64,000 bases of DNA from assembly GCA_019637955.1 (NCBI GenBank), contig JAHBUS010000002.1, forward strand, positions 248,001 through 312,000, given 5' to 3'. The notes below the pieces were generated by a model. That model did not search any database. It worked only from the letters and a program-made list of their open reading frames with translations, and had not been told where the DNA came from. The stretch is from Pseudobdellovibrionaceae bacterium (lineage in GTDB: Bacteria > Bdellovibrionota > Bdellovibrionia > Bdellovibrionales > Bdellovibrionaceae). Below, one piece after another: positions 21,021 through 47,302 of this stretch. A program made the position numbers and the translations under genes. Position 1 is the stretch's first letter; every line of letters begins with the position of its first letter.

Positions 21021-22430
21021 TTAGGTGTCGAGCATGGCATCGTGAGGCGGGCGCAGACCTTTTTTCTTGATCTTCTCGACCAAGGTCGTACGGTTCAGGC
21101 GCAGCAGTAAGGCGGCCTGGTTGCGGTTCCAACCGGTCTTCTCGAGCGCGCGCAAGATCAGCTGATTCTCAAACAGATCGACAGCCGTGTTAAAGTCCAT
21201 CCCTGCCTCGGGAATTTCGAAACTCAAGGAGTCGCCGGTTCCCATCGAGGCTTGGGCGCGGTACTTGGCCGGCAGATCGTTCACTTCAATTTGGCCGTGG
21301 CCCTTCAAGATGGCCAGACGTTCGACGAGGTTCTCGAGTTCGCGGATATTTCCGGGCCAAGGGTAATGGGCCAGGCAGTCCATGGCATCACTCGAGACGC
21401 CCGTGAGCTTGCGCGATTTGGATTTATTGAAATGATCCATGAAATGAGCGAACAAAAGCGGGATGTCGGTGCGGCGCTCGCGCAAAGCGGGGAGCGAAAT
21501 CGGAATGACGTTCAAGCGGTAGAACAGATCCTCACGAAACTTGCCTTGAGCGACTTGGTCTTCAAGATTCTTATTGGTCGCCGCGATCACCCGCACGTTC
21601 ACCGCGACGGTTTTGGTGCTGCCGACGGGTTCGAACGAGCGCTCTTGCAAAACGCGCAAGAGTTTGACCTGAAGCGAAGGTTCCAGGTCGCCAATTTCGT
21701 CCAAGAAGATCGTTCCGCCATCGGCCATTTCAAAACGGCCCACGCGGTTGGCGATCGCGCCGGTAAACGCGCCTTTCATATGGCCGAAAAGTTCGCTCTC
21801 GAGAAGTTCGGCGGGAATCGCGCCGCAGTTGATGGCCACGAACGGACTGTCCGAGCGTCCCGAGTTGTAGTGAACGGCGCGGGCGATCAGTTCTTTGCCC
21901 GTTCCGCTCTCGCCGGTGATCAGCACGGTCGACTCGGTGTCGGCCACGCGCTCGACCAGAGACAAAACGTTTTGAATCTCCTCCGAGCCCCCCACGATTT
22001 GATCGAAGCTGGCACGGCGACCGAGTTCGCGTTTGAGCTGGATATTTTCTTGTTGGAGTTTTTGCTGCGTCAGCGCCTTTTCAACGACGTTGACAAGTTC
22101 GTCCATGCTGAAAGGCTTGGTCATGAAGTGGAACGCGCCCAATTGGGTCGCGCGCACGGCCGATTCAATAGTGGCGTGTCCTGTCAGGATGATCACTTGG
22201 CAGCCCGGGTGCTGCGACTTGATCCACGTCATGAGCTCGATGCCGTCGCCGTCGGGAAGATTCAAATCCACCAAAGCCAAATCCAATTGAGCATCCGCGC
22301 CGCCGAGCTGCTTGGCTTCTTCGACTTTATTGGCCGTGATCACATGGAGATTGCGTTTTTCCAGAACTCGAAACAGGGCGGTGCGAAGCGTGGATTCATC
22401 ATCAACAATAAGGAGACGCGCAGTACGCAT
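21021..22430 (-). CDS. Sigma-54-dependent response regulator (NtrC/PilR type)
   Basis: This 469-residue transcription activator has three domains. The receiver (1-120) has phospho-acceptor Asp55 in LALVDLNLPDGDG. The AAA+ domain has Walker A GESGTGKE, the sigma-54 contact loop GAFTGA, Walker B LDEIGD and FREDLFYRLNV. The Fis-type DNA-binding helix-turn-helix is at the end (RNQAALLLRLNRTTLVEKIKK). All key residues are present, so it should activate sigma-54 promoters on phosphorylation. The likely partner kinase is encoded 83 bases upstream. Candidate targets include the sigma-54-type promoter at 39461, but this link is inference. Confidence 0.9.
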   Translation of the reverse strand: MRTARLLIVDDESTLRTALFRVLEKRNLHVITANKVEEAKQLGGADAQLDLALVDLNLPDGDGIELMTWIKSQHPGCQVIILTGHATIESAVRATQLGAFHFMTKPFSMDELVNVVEKALTQQKLQQENIQLKRELGRRASFDQIVGGSEEIQNVLSLVERVADTESTVLITGESGTGKELIARAVHYNSGRSDSPFVAINCGAIPAELLESELFGHMKGAFTGAIANRVGRFEMADGGTIFLDEIGDLEPSLQVKLLRVLQERSFEPVGSTKTVAVNVRVIAATNKNLEDQVAQGKFREDLFYRLNVIPISLPALRERRTDIPLLFAHFMDHFNKSKSRKLTGVSSDAMDCLAHYPWPGNIRELENLVERLAILKGHGQIEVNDLPAKYRAQASMGTGDSLSFEIPEAGMDFNTAVDLFENQLILRALEKTGWNRNQAALLLRLNRTTLVEKIKKKGLRPPHDAMLDT

Positions 22431-39317: not shown

Positions 39318-39460
39318 AGATGACTCCTCAAGATGGACCATCAAAGGTTAAAACCCGGTCCGTCTAAAGTCGAGCGTCAAATCCACGTCTGGACTGACAA
39401 GAAACGGAGGAAGTTTTTTCCTCAGACCCCGTCCATTTTTTCCTGAGGTCGAAGGTCCAT

Positions 39461-39477
39461 TGGCACCGAACGTGCTT
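39461..39477 (+). promoter_or_regulatory. Sigma-54 (RpoN) promoter of the flagellar cluster
   Basis: TTGGCAC (-24 region, GG at 39462-39463) and TGCTTT (-12 region, GC at 39474-39475) are spaced GG-N10-GC, the strict sigma-54 pattern. The predicted transcript start is about 39487. The first gene in the plus direction is the AMIN/TPR gene. Confidence 0.75.
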
Positions 39478-39615: not shown

Positions 39616-42399
39616 ATGATGCGTCTGCTCGTCTGCGTCCTGATGATGTCGTCGATCTCGACTCAAGTCCGTGCCGCCACCGGGGCCGCTCTGGACGTGG
39701 AGTCTTCTCTCTTGGGCGACACCGCTCACTTCGAGTTCTTGGGCCGCGATAATTGGAACTACGATCTGCAAAAAAAGACCGAGAAGGACAAAACCTTCGT
39801 GGAACTTCGCTTGCCCGCGCTCTCGGACAAGGCCGTTGCAAAGCTCAAGTCCTTTAAGGGAGGACCGATCCGTGAGGTCACGATCGACCGTTCGGGGCCG
39901 GACGGCAGCCATCTCGTGCGACTGCTACTGAATCCCGGCGATGTGGAAAGTTTCGACTACTTAACGGACCAGCCTTCGCGCTTGATCGTCGATTTCTATC
40001 CGCAAAAACCCAAAGTGGTGAAAAAGGCGGCTCCCGCCGAGGGCGAGACGGCCAAAGACGAGACGGGCGCCAAGAAGAAAACCGCCCAGAGTGTCAAGGG
40101 TCAGAACCGCAAACCCGCGACCACCGACGTTTTGATCGTGAAAAACGACACGATCGAAGATTTGCAAACCGCCGCTCCTCAGACCGAAGTCCAGTCGGGC
40201 GTGTTTGACGGCAGCGATCCCGGCTTCAGCCGCTTCTCCATTCAAGATTACGAAATCCGTGAAGATGCCGTGATTCAGAGCCGCGAAAAAGATTACATCG
40301 ATTTTCCGATGCTCCACGAGCGTCCCGATGAGCTTCAGGTCTTGAACTCACGCCGCCCGATGTACGAGATCGCCGAAAAGGATTCGAAGGACCCCAAGGT
40401 TCAAGACGAAAACAAAATGGCGCGTTTGCTCCTGACGTTGTTCAACAATAAGCGCTACCACGTGTTCTTGAAAACCGTCGACTGGTTCTACGAAAAGTAT
40501 CCCGACAGTGAATATGACGAAATCATCCGTTTTATGTGGGCGGACACCCACTATGCTTTGTATCAAGAAAACAAAGACATGCGTCAGTTCGACCTCGCGA
40601 TGGCTCGTTACCGCGAAGTTTTGACCAAGTATCCCACGTCCAAACTCGCCGAACGCACCATGCTCCTGATGGGGTATGCGTCCTTGGATCGCGGCGACTA
40701 TTTGGGGACCCTGCGCCTGTTCCAGCAGCACCTGGCAAAACTGCCCGCGTCGCCCAACCGAGATCTTTCGCGTATTGCGATCGCTGAAGCGTATTTGAAT
40801 CTGAATCAGTTTGACGATGCCGTGGCTCTTTACGAACAGATCGAAAAGGACGCCGCCCGCGAAGAGGACCGCGTGCACGCCGCTTACTTGAAGGGCGACG
40901 TGTTCTTCGAGCAGAAAAAAGACGCCCAGGCGATCAAAACTTATCAAGAGGCTCTGAAGAAGTATCCCAAAGCCGCCATCGACAATCCCGCGGCGCTGTA
41001 CAACCAGGCGTCCTCGTACTTCCGCGAGGGCGGCTACCGTGACAGCTTGAACGTCTTCAAGGAGTTTTTGACCAAGTTTCCGTCGCACCCTTACGCCGGT
41101 TACGCGATGACCCGCGTGGGCGAGATTCTCGATATTCTGGGCGCCGACTCCTCGCGCGTCGTGGGGGCGTACCTTGAAGCGTATTTCCGTTATGGCGATT
41201 CCCCCAGTGCGGTGGTGGCCCGTTTGCGTCTGCTCGGAACGCGCATGCGTTCGATGAAGCCCAAGGAAGTCGATAAAGCCGTTGAGGACATCACGCGCCT
41301 CGCGGCCCAGTCAAAATTGCCGAAAATGGGTCAGTTCTCGACGCTCCTGATCGCCGACGGTTTTACCAGCCGCGGGGAGTACGACCGGTCGATTGATCTT
41401 TTGGTCAAATTTTATCAAGACAACCCGACCAATGCCGACACCGCACGCTTGAAAAACAAAATCGTTCGCAACATCAATGAGAAGATTCGTGAGCAAGTCC
41501 AGAGCGGCAAATTCATGGACGCTTTAAAAACCCACAACACCTACGCGGATTCTTGGCTCAAAGGTTCGGATCGTATCGATACCAAGTTCTGGGTCGGTAA
41601 AGCGTTCGAGCAAGCGGGCGTTTTCAATGAGTCGAGCAAGCTCTACCGCGACGTCTTGAACAAGGTTTATGCCTTAAAGGGAACCAAAACGGGCCTTGAG
41701 CGCAATATCTTTGAAAAGTTGCCGTCGACCGACGACCTGCACTTGCGCCTGGCCGCTAGCGACTATGCGCAAGGAAAATGGAACCAAGCTTACGATCAAC
41801 TCAAAGAAATTCAGAAGCCCGAAGCGCTTTCGGACAAAGAGCAGATCGAGCGCGTCCAAATGGGAGCGGCGCTTTTGGAAAAAAAAGGTGAGCCCGAGTT
41901 CGCCCTGCGCTATCTCGCCGAGTTGATCAAAACGTGGAAGGGTGTTCCCTCGCTCGTGGCGGGACCTTATTACGATGCCGGACAGATCGAAATGAAGCTG
42001 GGCCGCAGTGATGATGCGCTGAAATCCTTCAAGCGCGTTGACGAACTCATGAAAGATTCGGGCTTGGTGAGTCCGCAAATTCACGCGCAGGCCCTCGAAA
42101 AGATGGCGCAGATCCATCTGGACAAAAAGCAGGGCGATCAGGCGGCCGCGGTTCTGGATAAACTGCTGAAGACCTACGAAAAGTCGCGTCCTTTGGCGTC
42201 GCTGCGCTACAAGCTCGGCATGATTTATTTCGAAAAAGGACAAGTGCAAAAGGCGGCCGAGGTTTGGGGCGATCTCAAAACTGGCAAGTCCGAGTTCTGG
42301 TACAAGCTCGCTCAAGAACAGCTCAAAGGTTCGGAGTGGGGCGACGAATACAAGAAATACATGAAACGAATCCCCGCGATGGCTGGTGAAGGTAAATGA
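39616..42399 (+). CDS. Secreted AMIN-like/TPR repeat protein at the head of the flagellar cluster
   Basis: This 927-residue protein has a signal peptide (MRLLVCVLMMSSISTQVRA). An N-terminal beta domain resembles AMIN (FEFLGRDNWNYDL through RLIVDFYP), which binds peptidoglycan in other proteins. A Lys/Ala-rich linker follows, then about 600 residues of tetratricopeptide repeats (for example AERTMLLMGYASLDRGDYLGTLRLFQQHL). The ATG is chosen for the signal peptide; a TTG at 39556 has a better AGGAGG site and would add 20 residues. The role may be to help build the flagellum through the wall. The next gene overlaps it by four bases. Confidence 0.72.
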   Translation: MMRLLVCVLMMSSISTQVRAATGAALDVESSLLGDTAHFEFLGRDNWNYDLQKKTEKDKTFVELRLPALSDKAVAKLKSFKGGPIREVTIDRSGPDGSHLVRLLLNPGDVESFDYLTDQPSRLIVDFYPQKPKVVKKAAPAEGETAKDETGAKKKTAQSVKGQNRKPATTDVLIVKNDTIEDLQTAAPQTEVQSGVFDGSDPGFSRFSIQDYEIREDAVIQSREKDYIDFPMLHERPDELQVLNSRRPMYEIAEKDSKDPKVQDENKMARLLLTLFNNKRYHVFLKTVDWFYEKYPDSEYDEIIRFMWADTHYALYQENKDMRQFDLAMARYREVLTKYPTSKLAERTMLLMGYASLDRGDYLGTLRLFQQHLAKLPASPNRDLSRIAIAEAYLNLNQFDDAVALYEQIEKDAAREEDRVHAAYLKGDVFFEQKKDAQAIKTYQEALKKYPKAAIDNPAALYNQASSYFREGGYRDSLNVFKEFLTKFPSHPYAGYAMTRVGEILDILGADSSRVVGAYLEAYFRYGDSPSAVVARLRLLGTRMRSMKPKEVDKAVEDITRLAAQSKLPKMGQFSTLLIADGFTSRGEYDRSIDLLVKFYQDNPTNADTARLKNKIVRNINEKIREQVQSGKFMDALKTHNTYADSWLKGSDRIDTKFWVGKAFEQAGVFNESSKLYRDVLNKVYALKGTKTGLERNIFEKLPSTDDLHLRLAASDYAQGKWNQAYDQLKEIQKPEALSDKEQIERVQMGAALLEKKGEPEFALRYLAELIKTWKGVPSLVAGPYYDAGQIEMKLGRSDDALKSFKRVDELMKDSGLVSPQIHAQALEKMAQIHLDKKQGDQAAAVLDKLLKTYEKSRPLASLRYKLGMIYFEKGQVQKAAEVWGDLKTGKSEFWYKLAQEQLKGSEWGDEYKKYMKRIPAMAGEGK

Positions 42400-43256
42400 T
42401 GATGAACTGGGTTGATTACGGAAGATTTCAAACTCAAAGCGAATGTGTCGTAAGCCTGCTCAAGTCGTGCGAGAAGCTCGCGCTGACGATGGGCGCACTC
42501 TTCATTTACGGCGAGGAGGGGTCGGGACGCCGCAGCCTCGCGCGTTGGGTTCACGATCACAGCCAAAGTCGTGGACGTTTCTTGGTTTGGTCGGCGCACG
42601 ATTTCGACGCCGCGGCTTTGCGTGAAGGCGACACCGTCCTGATCGAGAACATTCACGAGTTCGAGCCCGCGGATCTGATCAAGCTCAAGCGCCACCTCGA
42701 GGCTTCGGGGCTCGAGCGTTCGAGCCGCGTGCGCTTCGTGGTGACTTCGTCGCTGAGTCCCAATGACTGGATCGAAAGTTCATCGCTGGCACGTGAACTC
42801 GCCTACCGTCTCTGCGTCGTCACATTAAAAATGCCTTCGCTGCGTGACCGTCATCAAGACATCATCGGACTGGCGCACATGTTCCTGCGCGTGGCCTGCC
42901 TGGTGAACGGTCTTCCCGATAAGAAATTCTCGAACGAAGCCCTGGCTCTTTTGCAAACGCGCGAATGGAGCGGCAACGTGGCCGAACTCAACAACGTCGT
43001 CGAGCGCTCGGCACTCAAATCGGACTCGAGCACCGTGAATGAAACCGATCTGACCTTCTTGTCGCGGTCGCGCACGCAAGAAGAACTCAACGTGGGTCAG
43101 AGTGGCATCACGCTCTTCGAAATGGAAAAGAAACTGATCTTCCAAACTTTGGAAATGACCCGTCAGAACAAAACGCGCGCGGCGCAGATTTTGGGCATAA
43201 GCATTCGCACCCTGCGCAACAAACTCAACTCCTACCGTGAAGCGGAGGTCTCATGA
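42396..43256 (+). CDS. Degenerate sigma-54 enhancer-binding-like protein lacking GAFTGA
   Basis: This 286-residue protein is related to bacterial enhancer-binding proteins: AAA+ core plus a Fis-type helix-turn-helix (MTRQNKTRAAQILGISIRTLRNKLN). Walker A is damaged (GEEGSGRRS: Lys replaced by Arg45). Walker B reads VLIENIHE instead of DE. The whole GAFTGA segment between them is missing, and there is no receiver domain. The arginine-finger region ARELAYRLCV remains. It cannot be expected to activate sigma-54 and may instead bind DNA as a repressor or as a partner of a true activator. It overlaps the TPR gene and flgB by four bases each, so it is translated with them. Confidence 0.75.
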   Translation: MMMNWVDYGRFQTQSECVVSLLKSCEKLALTMGALFIYGEEGSGRRSLARWVHDHSQSRGRFLVWSAHDFDAAALREGDTVLIENIHEFEPADLIKLKRHLEASGLERSSRVRFVVTSSLSPNDWIESSSLARELAYRLCVVTLKMPSLRDRHQDIIGLAHMFLRVACLVNGLPDKKFSNEALALLQTREWSGNVAELNNVVERSALKSDSSTVNETDLTFLSRSRTQEELNVGQSGITLFEMEKKLIFQTLEMTRQNKTRAAQILGISIRTLRNKLNSYREAEVS

Positions 43257-43663
43257 GTATCTTGTTCGATAAAACGAGCCAGGCTTTAGGAACGGCGATG
43301 AACATGCGCCTCTTGAAGCACAACGTGGTGTCTTCGAACATCGCCAACGCGGAGACGCCCGGGTATCACGCCAAGAAGCTGGACTTTGAAGAGGCTTTGG
43401 CGCGCGCGGTGGATTTGGATGGCATGCGTTCGATGAACGCGACACATGGAGAGCACTTCGGCCTGGGCGGCGGCGGTGCCGGCAAAGTCGGTCCCGATAT
43501 TTACGACAATCCCGAAGGCCAAATCAGTAACGACGGCAACACCGTGGATCTCGAGCGTGAGATGTCTTCGCTTGCCGAGAATACGGTCATGTACCGAGCG
43601 GCCTTGCAGCTGATCAATAAAAAACTCGCGGCGCTTCGCTACGCCGTCACGGAAGGCCGGTAA
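43253..43663 (+). CDS. flgB: Flagellar basal-body rod protein FlgB
   Basis: FlgB forms the proximal rod. The 136-residue protein has the rod/hook family signature near the N-terminus, HNVVSSNIANAETPGYHAKKLDFEEAL, and a helical C-terminus (MSSLAENTVMYRAALQLINKKLAALRYAV) typical for FlgB. The ATG overlaps the previous stop (ATGA). flgC follows after four bases. Confidence 0.95.
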   Translation: MSILFDKTSQALGTAMNMRLLKHNVVSSNIANAETPGYHAKKLDFEEALARAVDLDGMRSMNATHGEHFGLGGGGAGKVGPDIYDNPEGQISNDGNTVDLEREMSSLAENTVMYRAALQLINKKLAALRYAVTEGR

Positions 43664-43667
43664 TTAG

Positions 43668-44111
43668 ATGGCTGATTTCATGAGTGGATTCCGAGTTTCA
43701 AGTTCGGGGATGACGGCGCAGCGGATGCGCATGAACACCATCTCGTCCAATATCGCCAATATCAACACGACCCGCACGCCCGAGGGCGGCCCCTACCGCC
43801 GCAAAGACATCGTGTTCGAGGCGATGCCCGATGCGCGAAATTTCGGCGAAATCCTGGGGGTGACCGACCCCAAGGCGAATGTCCAGCGCGTGCAAGTCAC
43901 GGACATCATTTCGGATACCAAGGCGCCCATGATGAAATATGAACCCGATCATCCGGACGCGAACGAAGAGGGCTACGTGGCTTATCCCAACATCAACCTG
44001 ATGGAGGAGATGACCAATATGATCCAGGCCACGCGGGCTTACGAGGCCAACGTCTCGTCCCTGCAGGCGGCCAAGGACATGGCGCTCTCGTCACTCGAGA
44101 TTGGGCGATAA
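43668..44111 (+). CDS. flgC: Flagellar basal-body rod protein FlgC
   Basis: FlgC is a 147-residue proximal rod protein. It has SSSGMTAQRMRMNTISSNIANINTTRTPEGGPYRRKDIVFEA at the N-terminus and YPNINLMEEMTNMIQATRAYEANVSSLQAAK at the C-terminus, both typical. It is the last gene before a gap of about 107 bases that holds two hairpins. Confidence 0.95.
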   Translation: MADFMSGFRVSSSGMTAQRMRMNTISSNIANINTTRTPEGGPYRRKDIVFEAMPDARNFGEILGVTDPKANVQRVQVTDIISDTKAPMMKYEPDHPDANEEGYVAYPNINLMEEMTNMIQATRAYEANVSSLQAAKDMALSSLEIGR

Positions 44112-44218: not shown

Positions 44219-44569
44219 ATGGACGGTTTTACAGTTTCGAGAGCGAACCGGTTTTTAGAAACCGGCAGTCTCGACAACAAATCGATGAAGATCAACGGGG
44301 AGAGCTCGTCTCAAGTTGGGTCGCTCGGCTCCACGTCTCCCGCCTCTGGTAAAAGCTTCGCCGACACTCTTCAAGACGCCATCGGCAACGTCAATGAACT
44401 GCAAAAGACCGCGGACAAAGGGGCTCAAGATCTCGCCACCGGCCGCACCGACAATATCGCCGAAGTGATGCTCTCGTCTGAACGCGCCGACATCGCGCTC
44501 AAGTTGATGATGCAAGTACGCAATAAAATCATCGATGCGTACCAAGAAGTCATGAAGATGCAGGTTTGA
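44219..44569 (+). CDS. fliE: Flagellar hook-basal body protein FliE
   Basis: FliE joins the MS ring to the rod. The 116-residue protein ends in the conserved FliE helix: SFADTLQDAIGNVNELQKTADKGAQDLATG, then VMLSSERADIALKLMMQVRNKIIDAYQEVMKMQV. The N-terminal 45 residues are Ser-rich and variable, as is usual. It follows the inverted repeat and a GAAGAGG ribosome-binding site. Confidence 0.92.
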   Translation: MDGFTVSRANRFLETGSLDNKSMKINGESSSQVGSLGSTSPASGKSFADTLQDAIGNVNELQKTADKGAQDLATGRTDNIAEVMLSSERADIALKLMMQVRNKIIDAYQEVMKMQV

Positions 44570-44614: not shown

Positions 44615-46264
44615 TTGAACAAGATTTTCGGAAACCTGATCGTGCAATTCCAGGAGTTTTTTAAGACCCTGGGGCCGACCAAGCGCCTGTCCATCGTGGC
44701 CGCGAGCATCATCGCGGTGGTGGCCCTGGTGGTGATCAGCTACATGATCAGCGGAAAGGACTACACGCCTCTCCTCACGAATGTTCCGAGCGATCAAGTT
44801 TCGACCATCGTGGCGAAGTTGAACGAGAAGAACATTCCCTTCCAGCTCCGCGATGACGGGAAGACCGTCGCCGTTCCCAAAGAACTCTTGCACAGCACGC
44901 AGATGAGTTTGATGTCGGAGCTCGGTTCCAGCAAACTGGGCAGCATTGGTCTTGAGATCTTCGACAAACAAGATTTCGGGAGCTCGAGCTACTCGCAGCG
45001 CGTGAACTATCAGCGCGCCTTGCAAGGCGAGCTCATGCGTTCGATCAACACCCTGGGCGCGGTGAAGCAGTCGAAAGTGATCCTCGCGCTTCCCAACAAG
45101 AAAACTTTCCTCGAAGAGGGCGGACAGGCCTCGGCGTCGATCGTGCTCGAGATGCACGCCGGTAAAACTCTCAGCCCCGATCAAGTTCGCGGCATTCAAT
45201 TTTTGGTGTCCTCTTCGGTTGAGGGCCTGGATCCCGAGCGCGTCACAGTGGTCGATGACCGCGGTAAGATGCTCTCCAAGGCCGGTAACGGCAACACGGC
45301 CGGCACCACCGAAATCATGGACCTGAAACGCAAAGTCGAGTCCGATTTCGAAGAGCGCATCGAAGCGATGCTCTCGAAAGTCGTCGGTCAGGCCAAAGTC
45401 ATCGCCCGCGTCGACGCGACTTTGAGCAATCGTTTAGTGTCGGCGGTCGAAGAGTCGATCGATCCGGACAAAACCGCGATCCGCAGCCAGCAGTCCGAAG
45501 AGGAGTCGCTCGACGGCGCGCGCACGAACCCCGCGGGCATCCCCGGTTCACGCTCGAACATCCCCGGCGCCGAAGATGCGGGCCAGGTGGGTTTCAAACA
45601 AGACGTCAAAAAAGAGATCAAAACCACGAACTACGAAGTTCCTAAAACCGTTCGCAACATCAAAGAGATGGCGGGCGGCCTTGAGCGCCTCAGCGTCGCG
45701 GTGATCGTCGATGGCGTGCAAACCACGCTCACCAAAGACGACGGGACGGTCGAGAGCAAGTGGAACCCCCGCAGTGCCGAAGAAATCCAAAAGTACGAAT
45801 CTCTGGTCAAGAGCGCCATCGGTTTCAAAGCCGATCGCGGCGACTCGGTCAAAATTGAGAACATCCAGTTCATCGCCGAAGACTTCACCGAATCCGAAAA
45901 GCTGCTGACCACGCTCGAGCGCAAGAAGCTCATGCACGCTCTGTTCAAATGGGCGCTCTTGGGATTCAGCTTGGCATTGTTCTTCTTTATCGTGATCCGA
46001 CCTTTCATGCAGTGGATCACCGATTCGTTCCAAGACTCGGTGGAGGACATGCTTCCGCGCACGATCGAAGAGCTTGAAGAGCTTCACTCGGTCGACAGCA
46101 CACTGCCGGGCATGAGTTCCGCCCTGCCGGTGCTTGAAGAGGCGATCGATCCCGACAAAGCCGAGAGCGAGCTGCTGAAAGACCGCATCATCTCGATTAT
46201 GGAAACCGACGAAGAGAAAGCCTCGAATGCCTTCGGCATGTGGCTCGTGAGAAAGGACATGTAA
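44615..46264 (+). CDS. fliF: Flagellar MS-ring protein FliF
   Basis: FliF builds the MS ring in the inner membrane. The 549-residue protein has an N-terminal membrane helix (RLSIVAASIIAVVALVVISYMI), periplasmic ring-building domains (YTPLLTNVPSDQVSTIVAKLNE, SARVTVV-type GLDPERVTVVDDRG) and a second membrane helix near residue 455 (LLGFSLALFFFIVIRPF). The acidic cytoplasmic tail binds FliG. The TTG start follows GAGGAG by six bases. It ends three bases before fliG. Confidence 0.95.
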   Translation: MNKIFGNLIVQFQEFFKTLGPTKRLSIVAASIIAVVALVVISYMISGKDYTPLLTNVPSDQVSTIVAKLNEKNIPFQLRDDGKTVAVPKELLHSTQMSLMSELGSSKLGSIGLEIFDKQDFGSSSYSQRVNYQRALQGELMRSINTLGAVKQSKVILALPNKKTFLEEGGQASASIVLEMHAGKTLSPDQVRGIQFLVSSSVEGLDPERVTVVDDRGKMLSKAGNGNTAGTTEIMDLKRKVESDFEERIEAMLSKVVGQAKVIARVDATLSNRLVSAVEESIDPDKTAIRSQQSEEESLDGARTNPAGIPGSRSNIPGAEDAGQVGFKQDVKKEIKTTNYEVPKTVRNIKEMAGGLERLSVAVIVDGVQTTLTKDDGTVESKWNPRSAEEIQKYESLVKSAIGFKADRGDSVKIENIQFIAEDFTESEKLLTTLERKKLMHALFKWALLGFSLALFFFIVIRPFMQWITDSFQDSVEDMLPRTIEELEELHSVDSTLPGMSSALPVLEEAIDPDKAESELLKDRIISIMETDEEKASNAFGMWLVRKDM

Positions 46265-46267
46265 GCG

Positions 46268-47302
46268 ATGAAGCTCGTCAAACCCGAAAATTTAGAATAT
46301 GAGAGCCTGCGCGGTTTTGAAAAAGCCGCGATCCTCGTGAATTACCTGGGTCCCGATGCGATTCGCGTTCTGTTCAAAGGCCTTGATGACGGTGATATTC
46401 GTAAACTTTTGAATTCGATGCCCAAGTACCGCGTCGTTCCCGTCCACGTGACCAAAAAGGTTCTCGAAGAGTTCTACGAGCTGATTTCGGAGACCGAGGA
46501 TTACATCTTCTCGGAACGTTCGGGCAATAAAGATTCGATCGTGCAAGCTCTCGGTGAAGACCGGGCGCGCGCGATTCTGGGCGGTTTGAACGTCGTTTCC
46601 GGCGGCGGCCGCACGCTCGAGTCGCTTGAGCTGGTCGACGCCAAGTCGCTGTCGACCTTCTTGGTGAACGAGCACCCGCAGACGGTGGCCGTCATCTTGG
46701 CGCACCTCGAGCCCGAGAAAAAAGGCGAGGTTCTCAAGCGCCTGCCTGAGACGTTACAAGCCGAAGTCGTTTTGCGTATGGCCAACTTGGACCACGTCGC
46801 TCCGGAGCTGATCGCGGAGATCGACCAGGTTCTGAAGAAAGAGCTCTCGTCGATGTCGTCGGTCGAACAAACCGCGCTCGGCGGCGTTCAGCCCGTGGCC
46901 GAGATGCTCAACGTCATGGACAAGAACACCGAAACTTCGATCATGTCGCGTCTCGAAGAGAAGGATCCGCTCCTCGCCGAGGAGATCCGCAAGCTCATGT
47001 TCGTCTTCGAGGACATCACCAAGATCGACGACCGCGGGATTCAAGTTCTGCTCAAAGAGGTTCCGAACGACAAACTCCTCCTGGCCCTCAAAACGGCCAA
47101 CGACGAGATCAAGAACAAATTCTTCAAGAATCTGTCTCAGCGCGCGGCCGAAATGCTCCGCGAGGACCTCAACAACATGGGACCTTCACGTCTGTCCGAC
47201 GTCGAAGGCGCTCAGCAAGAGATCGTCAATGCGGCTCGCCGCCTAGAGGCAGAAGGAAAGATCCTGATCGCACGTGGTGGCTCGGAGGATGCGCTTGTCT
47301 AA
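46268..47302 (+). CDS. fliG: Flagellar motor switch protein FliG
   Basis: FliG is the C-ring rotor protein that receives torque and sets rotation direction. The 344-residue protein has the N-terminal FliF-binding domain (RGFEKAAILVNYLG), the EHPQ motif of the middle domain (NEHPQTVAVILAHL) and the C-terminal charged torque helix (FEDITKIDDRGIQVLLKEV). Family length is about 330-345. Its end overlaps fliH by eight bases. Confidence 0.95.
   Translation: MKLVKPENLEYESLRGFEKAAILVNYLGPDAIRVLFKGLDDGDIRKLLNSMPKYRVVPVHVTKKVLEEFYELISETEDYIFSERSGNKDSIVQALGEDRARAILGGLNVVSGGGRTLESLELVDAKSLSTFLVNEHPQTVAVILAHLEPEKKGEVLKRLPETLQAEVVLRMANLDHVAPELIAEIDQVLKKELSSMSSVEQTALGGVQPVAEMLNVMDKNTETSIMSRLEEKDPLLAEEIRKLMFVFEDITKIDDRGIQVLLKEVPNDKLLLALKTANDEIKNKFFKNLSQRAAEMLREDLNNMGPSRLSDVEGAQQEIVNAARRLEAEGKILIARGGSEDALV
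47284..47288 (+). promoter_or_regulatory. Ribosome-binding site deciding the fliH start
   Basis: GGAGG ends six bases before the TTG at 47295. It abuts the ATG at 47289, which is therefore unlikely to be used. Confidence 0.6.

Follow-up and report, generated by a model that had tools for sequence, protein, structure and literature searches.

A GAFTGA-less FlbD-like protein encoded in a flagellar rod/fliF operon of a Pseudobdellovibrionaceae bacterium as a probable DNA-bound modulator of a sigma-54 promoter

Described relatives and the architecture of the protein

The GAFTGA motif, which lies in the L1 loop, contacts sigma-54, and L2 is the second sigma-54 loop. Among the flagellar regulators closest to the locus described here, FlbD has two roles: it is an activator of mid and late sigma-54 promoters and, at ftr4, a repressor of the early fliF gene (PMC3930126). 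The published site of the Caulobacter protein is CCCGGCA-N5-TGCCGGG, and that of DVU1063, the Desulfovibrio FlbD homologue, is GGCA-N4-TGCC (PMC3333781). A second group, comprising the GAFTGA-less NtrC of Caulobacter and R. capsulatus, TyrR, HupR, DhaR, VpsR and YplP, has had its sigma-54 loop deleted or changed (PMC10274813, PMC3162934). FleT of R. sphaeroides is a receiver-less bEBP encoded inside a fliEFG operon, where it is the partner of a second activator (PMC7277832); it has no helix-turn-helix (HTH) and is listed among the functional enhancer-binding proteins (EBPs) (PMC3162934).

The window analysed here, a stretch of 64,000 nucleotides, encodes an EBP relative that recalls each of these systems in part (Table 1). 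Its flagellar operon context and a candidate site partly resembling the dyad GGCA-N4/5-TGCC recall FlbD of Caulobacter crescentus and DVU1063, but unlike FlbD it has neither a receiver nor GAFTGA, its L2 is short and its ATPase motifs are degenerate. With GAFTGA-less NtrC, TyrR, HupR, DhaR, VpsR and YplP it shares the bEBP fold and an altered sigma-54 loop, and it belongs to this known class of GAFTGA-less bEBPs. Those members of the NtrC/TyrR/VpsR group with known targets, however, work at sigma-70 promoters, and a sensory domain is retained in most, whereas the operon around the window's EBP gene still has a sigma-54 promoter. Like FleT, it is a receiver-less bEBP relative encoded within a flagellar fli operon; unlike FleT, it keeps the HTH and has lost GAFTGA. 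The C-terminal HTH_8 domain is reminiscent of Fis, which the lid+HTH copies of genus g3 also approach in size, but the window's protein descends from a bEBP, and synteny and sequence point to FlbD.

Table 1. Features of the operon and of its upstream region, in positions of the window.
Feature	Positions	Strand	Remarks
TGTCA-type repeat element	39375..39401	+	order-wide; candidate UAS of a trans-acting activator
Box B1	39407..39424	.	dyad GAGGAAGTTTTTTCCTCA; candidate EBP binding site
Box B2	39430..39447	.	second copy, CGTCCATTTTTTCCTGAG
Candidate -24/-12 (sigma-54) promoter of the operon	39461..39476	+	TGGCACCGAACGTGCT
TPR-repeat protein gene	39616..42399	+	first gene of the operon, syntenic across the order; likely start 39616, mechanical ORF from 39487
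GAFTGA-less, receiver-less FlbD-like EBP relative, 286 aa	42396..43256	+	eroded AAA+ core, residues ~13-149; lid, 150-229; Fis-type HTH, 242-280 (ORF, Pfam, NCBIfam, alignment, model)
flgB	43253..43663	+	overlaps the EBP stop by ATGA
flgC	43668..44111	+	
fliE	44219..44569	+	
fliF	44615..46264	+	used as query; named by gene order and homology, not Pfam
fliG	46268..47302	+	used as query; named by gene order and homology, not Pfam

The Pfam scan of the full-length protein matched Sigma54_activ_2 (1.6e-12), AAA_lid_14 (5.7e-16) and HTH_8 (3.2e-11) and found no receiver domain, which agrees with the Fis-type HTH and rough AAA+ outline given in a preliminary description of this DNA. The losses listed there are also visible in our alignment: the ELFGYEKGAFTGA block that holds GAFTGA is absent, the Walker A motif reads GEEGSGRR, with Arg for Lys and hence no GxxGxGK, and LIENIH replaces LLDEIS, leaving IEN in place of the Walker B DE (ED in the copies of genus g7). 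The sensor II Arg is gone as well in the window's genome, and the L2 loop counts 15 residues against 22 in the relatives with intact copies. At each end the ORF has the four-base overlap reported earlier, an ATGA shared with the TPR gene on the 5' side and with flgB on the 3' side. The best NCBIfam family of the EBP is FlbD, at 147 bits against an equivalog cut-off of 750 bits that is not reached; the intact orthologues, at 404-432 bits, also stay below it. FlbD is the top NCBIfam match for the intact, the degenerate and the lid+HTH copies, all with an HTH of the FlbD type, and by these profile matches the window's EBP is specifically FlbD-like.

State of the EBP across the order

Orthologues were gathered by searching 100 related genomes and then fetching the loci; a direct contig scan with the single EBP protein gave no match, and the whole-genome search via relatives succeeded. 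The slot order TPR gene - EBP - flgB - flgC - fliE - fliF - fliG was recovered with 84 orthologous copies. Outside the window's family, 29/32 complete copies carry GAFTGA or GSFTGA; these complete copies are 309 to 382 aa long and none has a receiver. In other families GAFTGA is independently missing from L053 (G069) and L058 (G094), and the motif reads GAFVGA in L049 (G061). Inside the window's family GAFTGA occurs in 0/51 copies (0/46 of the aligned members and 0/5 of those found later), and the gap is thereby conserved in the relatives. The Walker A-to-B spacing is 58-59 residues outside the family (50 in the GAFTGA-less L058) and 31-41 inside it, falling to 15 in genus g3, while the L2 region has 22 residues outside versus 11-15 inside and 4 in g3. 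Because both stretches shrank, both of the loops that touch sigma-54 are affected.

Two of the losses described earlier must be narrowed in light of this comparison. The receiver is absent, as stated, but it was not lost in the window's lineage, because GAFTGA-bearing orthologues of other families also lack it. The loss of the Walker A Lys likewise holds for the window's genome but not as a general trait: within the family the residue is missing only there and in L020, L074, L082 and L092, and most members keep GK[ST].

Erosion in the window's family is graded, from copies of ~280 aa through ~240 aa to the lid+HTH alone (~140 aa) and finally to absence. Four g3 copies, of 137-141 aa, consist of the lid and HTH only, and in nine genera the EBP is absent and the TPR gene is followed directly by flgB. 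When a moved gene was sought in the EBP-less genomes, the HTH profile returned only a paralogue family of ~355 aa and weaker bEBPs. The TPR gene of one EBP-less genome, G019, is split into two ORFs (L088:4417-7286, minus strand), by a frameshift or an assembly error. A tree built on FlgB/C and FliE/F/G recovers the window's family as monophyletic, with the EBP-less genera scattered among the carriers in several places, some of them weakly supported. From sequence and shared slot, the EBP of this family is judged to have had an intact activator at this operon position as its ancestor. We read its history as follows: GAFTGA was lost once and early, and the whole EBP gene repeatedly thereafter. 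These repeated gene losses show that the EBP is dispensable in many genera.

What the surviving copies have in common is the HTH. The segment LGISIRTLRNKL is near-invariant, being almost identical among intact, degenerate and lid+HTH forms, and its dN/dS is 0-0.04 where dS could be measured (a rough estimate, with many dS values saturated). The AAA+ part in g7 gives 0.02-0.07, equally rough and with many saturated dS values, and by this estimate is under purifying selection. For g3 the AAA+ value is 0.52, from one measurable divergent pair, against 0.04 for the HTH; rough as they are, these values describe an AAA+ part that is relaxed and an HTH that is not. Chance gene decay is ruled out by the conservation of the HTH together with dN/dS. 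The loss of GAFTGA is real, is ancient in the window's family and has been selected around.

A structural model built from 32 family sequences (mean pLDDT 87) retains the AAA+/lid fold, and the structures nearest to it are NtrC1 (Z 21.6), VpsR and FlrC, with Z ~21 and the HTH part scarcely covered. The model was inspected for a substitute for L1: none was found, strands 62-66 and 80-83 being joined by a short coil, and no GAFTGA-like loop was seen elsewhere. The earlier expectation that this protein should not activate sigma-54 is supported family-wide, in that L1/GAFTGA has been lost together with part of L2 and the model offers no replacement loop; activation of sigma-54 by the window's EBP alone is accordingly highly improbable.

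The sigma-54 promoter and its upstream sites

A -24/-12 element lies upstream in 78/78 operons for which upstream DNA was available, whether the EBP is intact, degenerate or, in nine cases, absent. Its best scores, 10.5-16.3 bits under a weight matrix that is our own approximation of the published consensus, compare with a mean best of 4.8 bits in random stretches (95th percentile 10.0). The flgF operon has a conserved -24/-12 element of its own, TGGCAY-N5-TTGCT, in most genomes of every EBP state (L205-L257). Because the promoter is kept in every EBP state, the operon must have another activator, working in trans, and flagellar transcription stays sigma-54 dependent whether or not the EBP can activate. 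The window's genome has 17 intact bEBP genes, and on the evidence of the promoter sequences one of these must be the activator of the operon.

Several further genes were noted during these searches. An intact NtrC-type bEBP with a receiver is encoded at ~21498-21998 on the minus strand of the window, 18 kb upstream (L001). Another bEBP without a receiver, ~355 aa long and with a related HTH, occurs order-wide (in the window's genome, G000, at C1:841053-841730, L104, and in relatives), and is present also in G063 and G089, where no flgC was found; G059, flgC-less in the search, does carry other rod genes, and a contig may simply be missing. The window's genome also has eight matches to the flagellin N-terminal domain, from flagellins and probably FlgL.

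Two kinds of element lie upstream of the promoter. The first is a TGTCA direct repeat with an 11-bp period, resembling a Pho-box-type repeat. It stands ~85 bp upstream of the -24 element in 12/12 carrier genera, in 4/9 of the EBP-less ones and in 16/22 of those with an intact EBP, and it recurs at flgF in g3 and g7. Because it persists without the EBP, we tentatively assign it to the trans-activator; its survival in 4/9 EBP-less genera disfavours the alternative that it is the site of the EBP itself, and a search of the element for the FlbD-type dyad of the literature found none.

The second element, box B, is a palindrome with a consensus of about GGnAAWTTTTkCCyAG, placed ~50 and ~30 bp upstream of the -24 element. 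Scored leave-one-genus-out, with a matrix trained without the genus in question, box B occurs in 12/12 genera with a GAFTGA-less EBP (p <= 0.006 against shuffles); it occurs in 0/9 EBP-less genera and in 3/22 genera with an intact EBP. The contrast between carriers (12/12) and EBP-less genera (0/9) has a Fisher p of 3e-6 before phylogenetic correction. Parsimony, on weak branch support, suggests at least three joint losses of box B and the EBP, and in L088, which is EBP-less and nested among carriers, the promoter and the upstream element are kept and box B is gone. Within the box B zone of carriers, the FlbD core GGCA-N5-TGCC, taken from PMC3333781 and not fitted, reaches 5.96 matched bases against 4.62 expected, a measure of sequence only, and shows no enrichment in EBP-less or intact genera, in the upstream zone or in swapped controls. 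The match is partial: taken singly, 6/12 genera attain p <= 0.1, and the right half frequently reads TTCC instead of TGCC. A whole-genome search for box B beside a -24/-12 element, run before flgF was inspected, matched flgF-flgG-flgA-flgH in two g7 genomes, and such pairs are rare genome-wide. Box B as the marker of a broad flagellar regulon was rejected for most genera, because g7 alone has a strong copy at flgF.

Taken together, these patterns make box B a better-than-even candidate for the site of the EBP. The main unexplained point in the sequence comparison is that intact orthologues with the same recognition helix are without box B in most genera, and box B could for this reason belong to a partner that was lost along with the EBP. 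Being A/T rich, it could also be in part an UP element or an IHF-like site.

Proposed function and its alternatives

Our preferred reading, to which we assign a probability of roughly 0.55, is that an FlbD orthologue has shed sigma-54 activation, has kept DNA binding and would now autoregulate the sigma-54-driven rod/fliF operon. In the window's family an FlbD-like activator has dropped L1/GAFTGA and part of L2 while retaining its DNA-binding head, and a different, GAFTGA-bearing activator would fire the operon in trans. A dimer of the EBP would bind box B through the Fis-type HTH, between the upstream element and the promoter, and would from there adjust the output of the operon that encodes the EBP itself along with rod and MS-ring proteins. 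Negative feedback would be the most likely sign, comparable to the repressive half of the FlbD role in Caulobacter, which is exerted on the early fliF operon through an ftr site; the operon described here contains fliF. The function of the EBP is probably that of a DNA-bound modulator of the sigma-54 promoter, and the roles offered in the preliminary description, namely repression, DNA-bound scaffolding or the modulation of a true activator, fit the sigma-54 promoter that the operon keeps. That the protein is a DNA-binding autoregulator we consider likely, and given the rest, the balance would tip towards a repressor rather than a helper. A more specific version is evenly poised, namely that of a promoter-proximal modulator which counters or tunes another bEBP at its own operon, co-evolves with its operator and has been stripped stepwise to lid+HTH. 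In B. bacteriovorus FlgB and FlgF show a joint rise at a late stage of the predation cycle (PMC12546842), which fits shared control. In strain HD100 that paper tags flgB as Bd3407, which would make its upstream neighbour Bd3408.

The retained AAA+ domain invites a different view, in which the EBP enters, through its remaining AAA+/lid, into a hexamer with a GAFTGA-bearing bEBP, tuning or targeting the complex and supplying the DNA-binding head. FleQ/FleT and HrpR/HrpS provide precedents for such heteromers (PMC7277832; PMC9542535), and the AAA+ core in g7, strongly purifying-selected, still has a Walker A GKT, the R-finger helix FRQDLFYK and GNIREL. The confidently predicted AAA+ fold near NtrC1 and FlrC is compatible with assembly of this kind, as is the kept sigma-54 promoter, at which a true activator acts. 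The window's own genome, however, is without the Walker A Lys and the sensor II Arg, and because some g3 copies keep the HTH without any AAA+ domain, an AAA+ contact is not the universal function; we regard a heteromeric role as unlikely.

Less probable still is a role as a sigma-70 regulator after the manner of Caulobacter or R. capsulatus NtrC, TyrR and VpsR, acting for example on the divergent upstream gene or on others. The known GAFTGA-less bEBPs do act on sigma-70 promoters (PMC10274813, PMC3162934), and in the model comparison VpsR is among the closest predicted folds, but the EBP's operon keeps its -24/-12 promoter in every state, and box B stands ~50 bp upstream at just such a promoter, in a pairing that is rare genome-wide. 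A relic on its way out, translated through inertia or for TPR-flgB coupling and with little function, could explain the graded erosion, the repeated complete loss and the relaxed AAA+ part in g3, but it is made very improbable by a near-invariant HTH of low dN/dS wherever kept and by a box B that tracks the presence of the EBP gene, and the coupling does not need the EBP, because the operon stands without it in all nine EBP-less genera.

Within a single order, a two-job activator can be followed as it loses one job, with intact, GAFTGA-less, lid+HTH and absent states all represented in the same slot. The known GAFTGA-less relatives moved to sigma-70 promoters, whereas the window's EBP appears to stay at a sigma-54 promoter. 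New here are the conservation of the -24/-12 promoter irrespective of the state of the EBP and the co-occurrence of box B with the GAFTGA-less form. The literature that we found on flagellar regulation in predatory bacteria concerns control by sigma-28 (FliA) only, and the present locus adds a specific site and a specific gene on which flagellar regulation in these organisms could be tested.
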